From an uncultured Candidatus Actinomarina sp. (GTDB lineage: Bacteria; Actinomycetota; Acidimicrobiia; Actinomarinales; Actinomarinaceae), in the NCBI GenBank assembly GCA_902627635.1, contig CACOKA010000007.1:1-38209 (forward strand): DNA of 38,209 nt, given 5' to 3'. Below are positions 30,538-34,213 of the stretch, one piece after another; positions within the stretch are counted from its first letter, which is position 1, and each line of letters begins with the position of its first letter. The notes below the pieces were generated by a model. That model ran no database searches, was not told where the DNA came from, and worked only from the letters and a program-made list of their open reading frames with translations. Position numbers and translations under genes: made by a program.

Positions 30538-33204
30538 ATGAGTGAAGAAAAACCTTTAAACGTACCTGAATATCTATTGATTAGATCTGCGGAAGCAAGA
30601 GCTAAGCATTTAGGCATTTCTGTTGAGCAAGCTTTAGCCGAAATTAAGGGAGAATCCCAACCAGTAGCTAAAGTTGAAGAGTCTGTTGAAGAGGTAGTTG
30701 AAGAACCCGTAGCTGAAGTTGAAGAGCCTGTGGAAGAGGTAGTTGAAGAACCTGTAGCTGAAGTTGAAGAGGTAGTTGAAGAGGATGTAGAAGAAGTTGT
30801 AGCTGAGGAAGAACCTATTGAAGAACCAGTAGCTGAAGTTGAAGAGTCTGTTGAAGAGGTAAGCATAGAAAACAAAACTGTTGAGTCTATACCAGCCGTA
30901 ACAATTCGTTTTGCCGGTGACTCTGGTGATGGTATGCAATTAGTTGGTACTAGATTTACTGACACTTCTGCATTATTTGGAAATGATCTTGCTACTCTAC
31001 CAGCTTTCCCTGCTGAAATTAGGGCTCCTCAAGGAACAGTTGCAGGTGTATCTTCCTTTCAAGTACAAATTGCTGATTTTGATATTTTGACACCAGGGGA
31101 CGCTCCAGATGTTTTAGTTGCTATGAACCCTGCTGCTTTAAAAGCTCACTTGCAAGATTTAACACCAAACGGAATGTTGATATTGAACGAAGATGCTTTT
31201 GATGAAAAAAATATTAAAAAAGCGGGTTATGAAATAGATCCAAGAGAATCTGAAGAGCTTGATGGTTATAGAATTTTTCAGGTCCCAATGGAAAAACTTA
31301 CTAAGGAAGCTTTAGAGGAATTTGATTTACCAGGAAGAGCGGTCCTTCGTTCCAAAAATATGATTGCTCTTGGTTTAATTTCATGGACATTTAATAGAGA
31401 CCTTAAAGACACTGAAAATTGGATAAATGAAAAATTTAAGAACCTACCTGAGGTTGCAAAAGCAAACATAAAAGCTCTCAAAACTGGCTATAACTTTGGC
31501 ATTACAGTGGAAGCTTTTCACCATACTTATAAAGTAGACAAAGCGTCATTACCAGCTGGTGAATATACGAATATAAATGGAAACATCGGTTTGAGTTGGG
31601 GACTTATCGCAGGTGCTAAAAAAGCAAATCTCGAGCTATTTTACGGCAGTTATCCTATTACTCCTGCATCAGACATATTGCATGAATTATCAAAACACAA
31701 GAACTTCAATGTTTTAACTTTCCAAGCTGAAGATGAAATTGCAGCCGCTGCAGCAGCTGTGGGTGCTTCATTTACAGGCAAGCTTGCAGTTACAGGAACC
31801 AGTGGACCTGGTCTTGCTCTTAAAAGCGAAACGATATCTTTAGCACTGTCTGCAGAATTACCATTAGTAGTAGTGAATGTTCAAAGGGGTGGACCATCAA
31901 CTGGACTACCTACAAAACCAGAACAATCTGATCTAATGTTTGCAATGTATGGACGTCATGGAGAAGCTCCTTTACCAGTAATTGCAGCTAAATCGCCATC
32001 TCATGCTTTTTACGCAGCATTCGAGGCAACACGTATTGCTTTAAAGTACATGACACCCGTTATTTTATTGTCAGATAACTATGTTGCTACCGGTTCTGAG
32101 CCTTGGAAATTACCTGAAATTGATAGCTTGAATGAGTTGGGAACAAATTTAACCACTACATACAACACCGAGAATGGATTTTTACCATTTTTTAGAGATT
32201 TTGAAACTAATGCTCGACCATGGGCTATTCCTGGTACACCAGGTTTAGAGCATCGCGTAGGTGGTCTAGAAAAAGAAGATGGAACTGGAAATGTTTCTTA
32301 TGACACTGATAATCACCAATATATGACAGATATGAGAGCATGGAAAATTGAAAATATAGCAAATGATATTGACCAGCTTGAAATTAATGGAGACACATCT
32401 TCAGATACACTTATTTTGGGTTGGGGGTCAACTTTTGGTGGCATCACACAAGCTGTAAACAGACTTAATTCAAAAGGTATAAAGGTAGCAAGCGCACACT
32501 TCACGCATGTCAATCCTTTCCCAGACAACACAGCTGAAGTTTTGAGTCAATTTAAAAACATAATTGTCCCTGAATTAAACACTGGCCAATTATCAAAACT
32601 TTTACGTGCACGATATCTTGTAGACACTGTTGGAATCAATAAAGTCGAAGGTTTACCTTTTACAGCACAAGAGTTAGAAGAAAAAATCGAATCTCTCATA
32701 AACTCTTTTGGTACAAAACTTGAGCCAGTTGTAGAGGAAGTTGTAGCTGAGGAAGAACCTGTAGTTGAAGAGGTTGTAGAGGAAGTTGTAGCTGAGGAAG
32801 AACCTGTAGTTGAAGAGGTTGGAATACCAGAACACCTCATAATGAGATCTGCTGAAGCACGTGCAAAAGCTTTAGGTATACCTGTTGAGCAAGTTTTAGA
32901 AGAAATGAGTGCAGATAAACCAGCAGCAGAAACCGAGGAGCCTGTTGTTGAAGAAGAGCCTGTTGTTGAAGAAGAGCCTGTCATTGAAGAAGCAAAATCA
33001 GACAAACCTGAAGAACCAGCAGCAGAAACCCAGGAACCTGTTGTTGAAAGAGTTGTTGAAAGGGTTACTGAAAGAGTAACTGAGAGAATTATCGAAAAAG
33101 TTGATGAGACTTTACCTGAGAATAAAGAACTTGTTCAAGATGTTGAAGAAGAAAGAAATAAGGTTGATGAAGAGAAAAAAGAGGAAGTAAAGACTGATGA
33201 GTAA
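30538..33204 (+). CDS. korA: 2-oxoglutarate:ferredoxin oxidoreductase subunit alpha (fused gamma-alpha) with acidic repeat extensions
   Basis: With KorB, oxidatively decarboxylates 2-oxoglutarate to succinyl-CoA and reduces ferredoxin. Core: gamma domain from about 121 (VTIRFAGDSGDGMQLVGTRF), then the alpha domain (ELFYGSYPITPASDILHEL, FQAEDEIAAAAA, TSGPGLALKSE, QRGGPSTGLPTK) to about 728, colinear with mycobacterial KorA. Odd: 888 residues against about 650. Residues 1-120 and 729-888 are acidic Val/Glu/Pro/Ala repeats, and each holds one copy of a 28-residue motif (9-36 and 763-790; core RSAEARAK.LGI.VEQ.L). The last 60 residues (VERVVERVTERVTER) are probably a long charged helix. Function of the tails is unknown. 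It overlaps korB by 8 bases. Confidence 0.95.
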   Translation: MSEEKPLNVPEYLLIRSAEARAKHLGISVEQALAEIKGESQPVAKVEESVEEVVEEPVAEVEEPVEEVVEEPVAEVEEVVEEDVEEVVAEEEPIEEPVAEVEESVEEVSIENKTVESIPAVTIRFAGDSGDGMQLVGTRFTDTSALFGNDLATLPAFPAEIRAPQGTVAGVSSFQVQIADFDILTPGDAPDVLVAMNPAALKAHLQDLTPNGMLILNEDAFDEKNIKKAGYEIDPRESEELDGYRIFQVPMEKLTKEALEEFDLPGRAVLRSKNMIALGLISWTFNRDLKDTENWINEKFKNLPEVAKANIKALKTGYNFGITVEAFHHTYKVDKASLPAGEYTNINGNIGLSWGLIAGAKKANLELFYGSYPITPASDILHELSKHKNFNVLTFQAEDEIAAAAAAVGASFTGKLAVTGTSGPGLALKSETISLALSAELPLVVVNVQRGGPSTGLPTKPEQSDLMFAMYGRHGEAPLPVIAAKSPSHAFYAAFEATRIALKYMTPVILLSDNYVATGSEPWKLPEIDSLNELGTNLTTTYNTENGFLPFFRDFETNARPWAIPGTPGLEHRVGGLEKEDGTGNVSYDTDNHQYMTDMRAWKIENIANDIDQLEINGDTSSDTLILGWGSTFGGITQAVNRLNSKGIKVASAHFTHVNPFPDNTAEVLSQFKNIIVPELNTGQLSKLLRARYLVDTVGINKVEGLPFTAQELEEKIESLINSFGTKLEPVVEEVVAEEEPVVEEVVEEVVAEEEPVVEEVGIPEHLIMRSAEARAKALGIPVEQVLEEMSADKPAAETEEPVVEEEPVVEEEPVIEEAKSDKPEEPAAETQEPVVERVVERVTERVTERIIEKVDETLPENKELVQDVEEERNKVDEEKKEEVKTDE
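30562..30645 (+). repeat. KorA N-terminal copy of 28-residue motif
   Basis: Encodes residues 9-36 of KorA: VPEYLLIRSAEARAKHLG followed by ISVEQALAEI. It matches the C-terminal copy at 19 of 28 residues, but 8 of those 19 use different codons, so the two copies are old and held by selection on protein sequence. Confidence 0.9.
30673..30762 (+). repeat. 45-bp tandem repeat in the KorA N-terminal tail, two copies
   Basis: Two adjacent 45-bp units (30673-30717 and 30718-30762) differ at 3 bases and encode VEESVEEVVEEPVAE and VEEPVEEVVEEPVAE. Degenerate units continue to about 30860. Confidence 0.92.
32728..32817 (+). repeat. Perfect 45-bp tandem repeat in the KorA C-terminal tail
   Basis: Units 32728-32772 and 32773-32817 are identical in all 45 bases and encode VVEEVVAEEEPVVEE twice. 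Perfect identity implies a recent slippage or recombination event. The unit length equals that of the N-terminal repeat. Confidence 0.93.
32824..32907 (+). repeat. KorA C-terminal copy of 28-residue motif
   Basis: Encodes residues 763-790 of KorA: IPEHLIMRSAEARAKALG followed by IPVEQVLEEM. It lies between two acidic repeat blocks, as the N-terminal copy lies in front of one. Confidence 0.9.
32941..32994 (+). repeat. 18-bp tandem repeat PVVEEE, three copies
   Basis: CCTGTTGTTGAAGAAGAG occurs twice in perfect form (32941-32958, 32959-32976) and once with changes (32977-32994). It forms the second acidic block of the KorA C-terminal tail. Confidence 0.88.
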
Positions 33205-34213
33205 AATTCCTCTCTCATATAAAAGAGCTGACTTTGCTAGCGACCAAGAGGTTAAATGGTGCCCTGGGTGCGGCGATTATACAATTCTTGCTTCTGTACA
33301 AAACTTTATGACTGAATTAGGTATCAGAAAAGAAAATATTGTGTTTGTATCTGGCATTGGTTGTGCGGCAAGATTTCCTTATTACATGAACACATACGGT
33401 TTACATTCAATTCATGGTCGTGCTCCTGCAATAGCAACTGGAGTTAGCGCATCTAACCCTGATCTTTCAGTATGGGTAGTATCAGGAGATGGTGACGCCC
33501 TATCTATTGGAGGAAACCACTTGATTCATGCACTAAGAAGAAATGTAAACATGAAGATTTTAATGTTCAATAATCAAATATATGGACTTACCAAAGGACA
33601 GTATTCCCCTACCAGTGAAGAAGGAAAGAAAACAAAATCTTCTCCTTTTGGCTCTGTAGAACTTCCACTAAACCCAATGAGTCTAGCCTTAGGAGCCGAG
33701 GCGTCCTTTGTTGCAAGGTCAATTGATATGGATAGAGATCTTACAGCAGAGGTACTTCGAGCAGCATCTGAACATGAGGGTTCAGCTTATGTTGAGATTT
33801 ATCAAAACTGTAATGTGTTTAATGACAAAGCCTTTGAGCAGCTAACTTCTAAGGAAGGAAAAATAGCAAATCGTATAAATCTAAAACATGGTGAGAAAGT
33901 TATCTTTGGAGCAGAAGATGAAAATGCTGTAACAATTCGTGATGGAGAAGCAGTCATTGTCAAAAGATCTGAAATAGATGATAGTGAGATTTATGTTCAT
34001 GACATTACAAAAGATAATCCTTCAATTGCTTTTTCATTATCAAGATTATCTCATGGACCTTATGGACCAACACCAGTAGGTATCTTTAGAAAAGTTGAAA
34101 GAGACACTTACAATGATGAAGTCAGAGAACAAATTGACTCATCTATTGAACAAAAAGGTGAAGGAGAACTTGATAAGCTTATAAGATCTCTTGGAACCTG
34201 GAACGTAAATTAA
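33197..34213 (+). CDS. korB: 2-oxoglutarate:ferredoxin oxidoreductase subunit beta
   Basis: Thiamine diphosphate-binding subunit of KorAB. Seen: 338 residues; KWCPGCGDYTIL at 20-31; SGIGCAARFPYYMNTYG; the TPP/Mg motif GDGDALSIGGNHLIHALRRN; FNNQIYGLTKGQYSPTS; and PFGSVELPLNP. The cysteines CPGC near the N terminus and a later Cys (YQNCNVF) are the 4Fe-4S ligands expected in this family. The 8-base overlap with korA (ATGAGTAA) indicates coupled translation. KorAB replaces or supplements the 2-oxoglutarate dehydrogenase step of the TCA cycle. Its stop is one base from the convergent PhoU-like gene. Confidence 0.97.
   Translation: MSKIPLSYKRADFASDQEVKWCPGCGDYTILASVQNFMTELGIRKENIVFVSGIGCAARFPYYMNTYGLHSIHGRAPAIATGVSASNPDLSVWVVSGDGDALSIGGNHLIHALRRNVNMKILMFNNQIYGLTKGQYSPTSEEGKKTKSSPFGSVELPLNPMSLALGAEASFVARSIDMDRDLTAEVLRAASEHEGSAYVEIYQNCNVFNDKAFEQLTSKEGKIANRINLKHGEKVIFGAEDENAVTIRDGEAVIVKRSEIDDSEIYVHDITKDNPSIAFSLSRLSHGPYGPTPVGIFRKVERDTYNDEVREQIDSSIEQKGEGELDKLIRSLGTWNVN

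Follow-up and report, generated by a model that had tools for sequence, protein, structure and literature searches.

In the 2-oxoacid dehydrogenase complexes, the E2 subunit carries a peripheral subunit-binding domain (PSBD) and flexible linkers made of Ala, Pro, and acidic residues. The gene described here, korA of a Candidatus Actinomarina genome, resembles E2 subunits in combining a small helical module (~35 residues) with long low-complexity linkers and a catalytic core of 2-oxoacid metabolism. It differs from E2 in that the module is without detectable PSBD homology, the enzyme (2-oxoglutarate:ferredoxin oxidoreductase, KOR) is ferredoxin-dependent, and the module is common to membrane cytochromes. 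The KorA core and KorB are those of KorAB as in Mycobacterium tuberculosis (PMC2773412) and Magnetococcus (PDB 6n2n), but among the KorA sampled, tails such as those present here are confined to a single Actinomarina clade. Both the module and this kind of repeat linker recur in the Acidimicrobiia cytochrome bc (with a split cytochrome b, ExtP/ExtQ-like) and cbb3-like oxidase cluster; there, the carriers are membrane subunits and the occurrence is class-wide, whereas in KorA the module sits on a soluble enzyme and is clade-specific. In the respiratory III–IV supercomplexes of actinobacteria, the physical association of complexes III and IV is established for mycobacteria (PMC4505504); no module of the present type was found in the other actinobacterial classes sampled. 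Our literature search found no paper on Actinomarina repeats or on KOR tied to respiratory supercomplexes. The minisatellites of korA encode linkers that carry the module, and we lean, by a little, towards the reading that KOR is docked by its modules to the bc/oxidase complexes, on their cytoplasmic side. We infer both the docking and the identity of the electron acceptor discussed below.

The window (the whole stretch of 38,209 nt that was analyzed, C7:1-38209) belongs to a draft genome of 813 kb, with a korA closest to that of Candidatus Actinomarina, class Acidimicrobiia. This korA (30538-33204, on the + strand, as are its parts and korB) encodes the KOR alpha subunit, 888 aa long with N- and C-terminal tails. 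KorA reaches 654 bits against TIGR03710 over aa 121-717, which exceeds the curated cut-off of 482.75, and fuses a gamma domain (POR, PF01558) to an alpha domain (POR_N, PF01855), both above cut-off. The top fold match is 6n2n, itself a 2-oxoglutarate:ferredoxin oxidoreductase, and no transmembrane helix is predicted. The adjoining korB (33197-34213) encodes the beta subunit, with PF02775 above cut-off and 255.6 bits against TIGR02177, slightly below its cut-off of 261.9. The substrate of KOR is presumably 2-oxoglutarate, on the basis of the 6n2n fold match and of a genus without the E1 of 2-oxoglutarate dehydrogenase.

Along korA, an N-terminal copy of the module, VPEYLLIRSAEARAKHLGISVEQALAEIKGE (30562-30654), is followed by an acidic linker (30655-30870), then by the catalytic core with the gamma and alpha domains (30871-32697, delimited by the domain and fold matches). 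After the core come a first C-terminal linker (32698-32823), a C-terminal copy of the module, IPEHLIMRSAEARAKALGIPVEQVLEEMSAD (32824-32916), a second C-terminal linker (32917-33051), recognized like the N-terminal one by composition and repeat scan, and a helical end (ERVVERVTERVTERIIEKVDE..., ERVTERV-type, 33040-33201). This helical end is kept in the C tails of relatives and has no second copy elsewhere in its own genome. In the N-terminal linker, E, V, P, and A make up 88% of the residues and the net charge is -31; the C-terminal linkers have net charges of about -14 and -13. With such charges, the tails could serve mainly for solubility, charge, or cation binding, the modules being helical caps. 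We consider this very unlikely, since it leaves unexplained the similarity of the modules to those of cytochromes b and c, and since the cytochrome linkers are Ala/Pro-rich as much as acidic.

The docking reading starts from the repeats within these linkers. The repeat scan agrees with an earlier description made from the sequence alone (hereafter the sequence-only reading), with two N-terminal 45-bp units, two identical C-terminal units, and an 18-bp array after them. The best N-terminal pair (30671-30760, with several registers equivalent) shows 3 mismatches, and the array reported there by TRF has 3.8 copies with 82% matches (30659-30824). The C-terminal units (32728-32772 and 32773-32817) are identical at 45/45 bases; the run of identity at offset 45 is 49 nt long and the array spans 32728-32821. 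This run is the longest self-offset run in the window (periods 10-60), compared with at most 11 nt in Markov-1 random windows (n = 5), which rules out a chance origin of the korA repeats. The 18-bp array (32938-32992) has 3.1 copies with 94% matches, and a degenerate 12-bp array is also present at 33040-33077. Given the amino acids, the 15 identical synonymous codon choices of the C-terminal pair have a probability of 7e-6 under the codon usage of the genome and of 6e-5 under that of the tails. Such identity is improbable enough for the pair to represent a recent copy and not only a constraint at the protein level. Judged by its codons, the C-terminal duplication is recent, or homogenised, and the perfect pair had rightly been seen as a sign of repeat-number change.

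The equal length of the units at both ends had also been thought meaningful. The N- and C-terminal units, however, mismatch at 15 of 45 positions in the best rotation, so that length alone is common to them, and the repeat units of relatives are of 27, 33, and 18 bp. With unrelated units and relatives that differ, the shared 45-bp length carries no message, and we reject a functional meaning for it. The sequence-only reading had further held such repeats to be rare in so compact a genome. This stands for the window, where no array other than those of korA scores above 41, but not for the respiratory genes of a relative, whose module-bearing members have linker arrays of 54 bp (4.5 copies) and 45 bp (2 copies), both at 100%.

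What had been missed is that the repeats serve as linkers flanking a conserved module, one that cytochrome b and c proteins also carry. The module comprises about 31 residues forming two helices, with the motif (I/V)PE[HY]LL.RSAEARAKALGI.VEQ.L.EM. The two KorA copies match the module profile (A1) in their own genome with E = 3e-21 and 3.5e-20, the latter for the N-terminal copy. An AF2 model computed on 51 aligned copies places helices at 11-25 and 29-37; in the first helix and the loop, pLDDT is close to 90. In the AF2 model of full-length KorA, both modules are helical (the C-terminal one with helices 765-779 and 783-791) and most linker residues have pLDDT below about 31 (about 26-31 in the N-terminal linker, <30 over most of the first C-terminal one). 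The linkers are thus predicted to be disordered and the modules ordered. Because the mean pLDDT of this full-length model is 63, with low overall confidence, we do not use it to judge whether the modules touch the core.

No family in Pfam, NCBIfam, or the PDB is a convincing match for the module, which is apparently undescribed. In Pfam, no family is better than E = 0.06 and E3_binding gives no match at E <= 10; in NCBIfam, nothing is better than 0.08. Against PDB sequences, the best profile match has E = 0.024 and the matches are weak (designed repeats, a dehydrogenase helix), while a single-sequence search matches a designed repeat protein at E = 2e-4, no individual stretch passing by itself. 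Foldseek with the module model gives nothing below E = 4, and VIA-align a Z of 3.3 at most. Homology to the PSBD (PF02817) is not supported, with an hhalign probability of 0.5% against one PSBD sequence and no Pfam match.

In the genome of the window, the module occurs only in KorA (twice), in the C-terminal half of cytochrome b (L033, PF00032), and in one cbb3-subunit-III-like cytochrome c (L035, PF00034). In both cytochromes, it stands at the N-terminus and precedes repeats of their own (EAPAPAAEVK in cytochrome b and PPAEEA in cytochrome c). The profile search found the module in 42 of 42 Ca. Actinomarina genomes and, this genus included, in 129 of the 198 Acidimicrobiia genomes sampled. 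Among 396 genomes of other actinobacterial classes, there is no module at E <= 1e-4. Four out-of-class matches to a 20-residue profile (E 0.003-0.01) are ascribed to chance, as a pattern scan found no ORF with the motif. Outside the genus, the carriers are the same respiratory proteins, with 1-4 module copies. Besides KorA, the carriers examined are of four kinds: the C-half of cytochrome b, CcoO-like and CcoP-like cytochromes c, and a multi-TM membrane protein of ~375 aa (L129:1359-2477, L133, L137, L138, L140) without Pfam family. In L129, the last comes after genes read as coxIII-, coxIV-, and ctaG-like. In further Acidimicrobiia families, the same cytochrome b and c proteins carry a shorter form of the module, IPEHLLKRSRERRAA, N-terminally. 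KorA is the only soluble carrier found, the other carriers being membrane subunits of the bc or oxidase cluster. Attachment of c-type haem takes place outside the cytoplasm. In the cytochromes c, the module comes first, then the sole transmembrane helix, then CxxCH, so that the module is expected on the cytoplasmic side of the membrane, the side of KorA; we infer this side from the order of the sequence elements.

The pairing of module copies on KorA and the 2-4 copies on some cytochromes, joined with linkers predicted to be disordered, are what would be expected of a multivalent sticker-and-spacer element. The module could then be a self-association or clustering element, with KOR and each respiratory protein clustering separately and no cross-docking. 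This option is unlikely in our view, since the KorA copies form no divergent class. Both have the cytochrome b copy as their nearest counterpart (aa identity 74% and 65%, nt identity 76% and 73%), which suggests cytochrome b as their source and fits a shared partner.

A partner shared through docking would also be compatible with the selection on the module. Between the window and its nearest relatives, the N module has 5-8 nt changes and no aa change (8 nt and 0 aa with G018); with G011, there are 16 nt differences and 1 aa difference (dN 0.036, dS 1.3). For the C module, dN = 0 across the five nearest genomes. Judged from these substitutions, the KorA module is under purifying selection.

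The tail-bearing KorA form one clade (support 99/99) and one change on the tree suffices; on this phylogeny, KorA gained its tails and module once, in one Actinomarina clade. In the remaining Actinomarina clades, KorA is tailless, beginning with M..ENKTVESIPA and ending directly after the core. Within the tailed clade, the aligned KorA differ among species in the length and repeat make-up of the tails. Counted from QELE up to the C module, the KorA of the window has 52 residues; where the cores are about 98% identical, the counts in other genomes are 48, 62, and 63, and the korA tail of G003 has 33-bp units repeated 11 times (97%). The comparison of relatives thus bears out an unequal repeat number and tail length. 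Variation had been expected between strains; with one genome per species compared, it is seen at the level of species. In G018, the C module is frameshifted by a 1-nt deletion in a C-tail repeat unit (L084:4905-4925), which may reflect either a dispensable C copy or a sequencing error. In G011, the C tail is without module and the N tail has an extra one (as read from two contigs). Taken together, the G018 frameshift and the G011 arrangement indicate that the positions of the module in KorA are not fixed.

Such features raise the question of whether the tails are passengers, a piece from the 5' end of the cytochrome b gene having been duplicated into korA, where slippage enlarged it and it is tolerated without function. 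Linker length is free to vary, the C tail of G018 is frameshifted, and most of the genus has tailless orthologues, all of which would agree with a passenger. On the other hand, the module residues are strongly conserved despite diverged synonymous sites, as in the comparison with the N module of G011, and two copies are retained in a genome under streamlining; we therefore hold this to be quite unlikely. The taillessness of KorA in most Actinomarina clades also speaks against docking, as do the very small size of the module, the G018 deletion, and the C tail of G011 that has no module.

Contigs break inside korA in 9 of the 11 genomes with tails and in 2 of the 22 without (Fisher p = 6.7e-5, from a hand count), and in at least six genomes (G006, G007, G011, G012, G030, G062) the break falls within a tail or at its border. 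The short-read assemblies of the relatives therefore probably under-represent the repeats. The repeat count given for the window depends on its own assembly, and breaks of this frequency in or near the tails could be taken to mean that misassembly of this single genome produced the perfect repeat. That is most improbable, since the relatives share the tail architecture with repeat numbers of their own, and since the breaks suggest repeats that are under-represented, not invented. In G017, contig C12 (L030/L065) opens with an inverted korA fragment, a likely amplification chimera.

The minisatellites encode flexible acidic linkers joining the KorA core to the two-helix modules, which one Actinomarina clade has put on both ends of KorA. 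If KOR is docked, the module would hold it at the bc/oxidase complexes, either by module–module contact or through a shared partner, and low-potential electrons from 2-oxoglutarate would be delivered locally, donor and candidate acceptor being close to each other. As acceptor, the candidate is the ferredoxin-like dicluster protein encoded in the bc operon; NuoEFG-less complex I would offer an alternative route. With repeat number shifting by slippage or unequal recombination, spacer length would shift too, and, since the units are multiples of three, it can alter without breaking the frame. The repeats may act as evolvable spacers, in a sticker-and-spacer or tether-like design. An extended version seems to us doubtful, with the class-specific mini-domain as a common plug at the cytoplasmic side of the bc and oxidase complexes, two such plugs added to KOR by one streamlined marine lineage, the electrons of KOR passing via the bc-operon ferredoxin to the quinone pool in a metabolon of TCA enzyme and respiratory chain, and minisatellite length tuning the reach. 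A seemingly trivial minisatellite has, in any case, provided evidence for a shared and apparently undescribed module that marks respiratory proteins of a whole bacterial class and that was co-opted by an enzyme of central metabolism, KOR. Should docking be true, an abundant uncultured ocean bacterium would encode in its genome a respiratory-chain tether for a TCA enzyme, and its relatives would constitute a natural linker-length series for testing the effects of spacer length.

The 2-oxoglutarate dehydrogenase E1 domain OxoGdeHyase_C (PF16870) is absent from 41 Actinomarina genomes. KOR therefore appears, from gene content, to be the sole enzyme of the genus oxidising 2-oxoglutarate to succinyl-CoA, and the electrons should leave as reduced ferredoxin. 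Complex I of the order containing Actinomarina is described as NuoEFG-less (PMC7771536). The bc operon has the order ~200-aa membrane protein, 2x[4Fe-4S] protein, cytochrome b N-half, C-half, Rieske, and cytochrome c with two haem-c domains. It is complete, with the split cytochrome b, in G012 (L221:2288-7325) and in the genome of the window (L033), and the same order is found in G045 and G057, from other Acidimicrobiia families. The gene next upstream of cytochrome b encodes the 2x[4Fe-4S] ferredoxin-like protein (L221:6290-6745, L222:8255-8704, L224:7457-7870, L033:251-706), in loci that cover the genome of the window, one relative, and two other Acidimicrobiia families; electrons could enter the bc complex through this protein. 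The taxonomic order of Actinomarina has been described as without complex III (PMC7771536), a statement on which the operon of the module bears, with both cytochrome b halves, Rieske, and a cytochrome c with two haem-c domains. In G061, two module-bearing cytochrome b/c clusters are present in one draft (contigs C8 and C10), by duplication or in a mixed genome.
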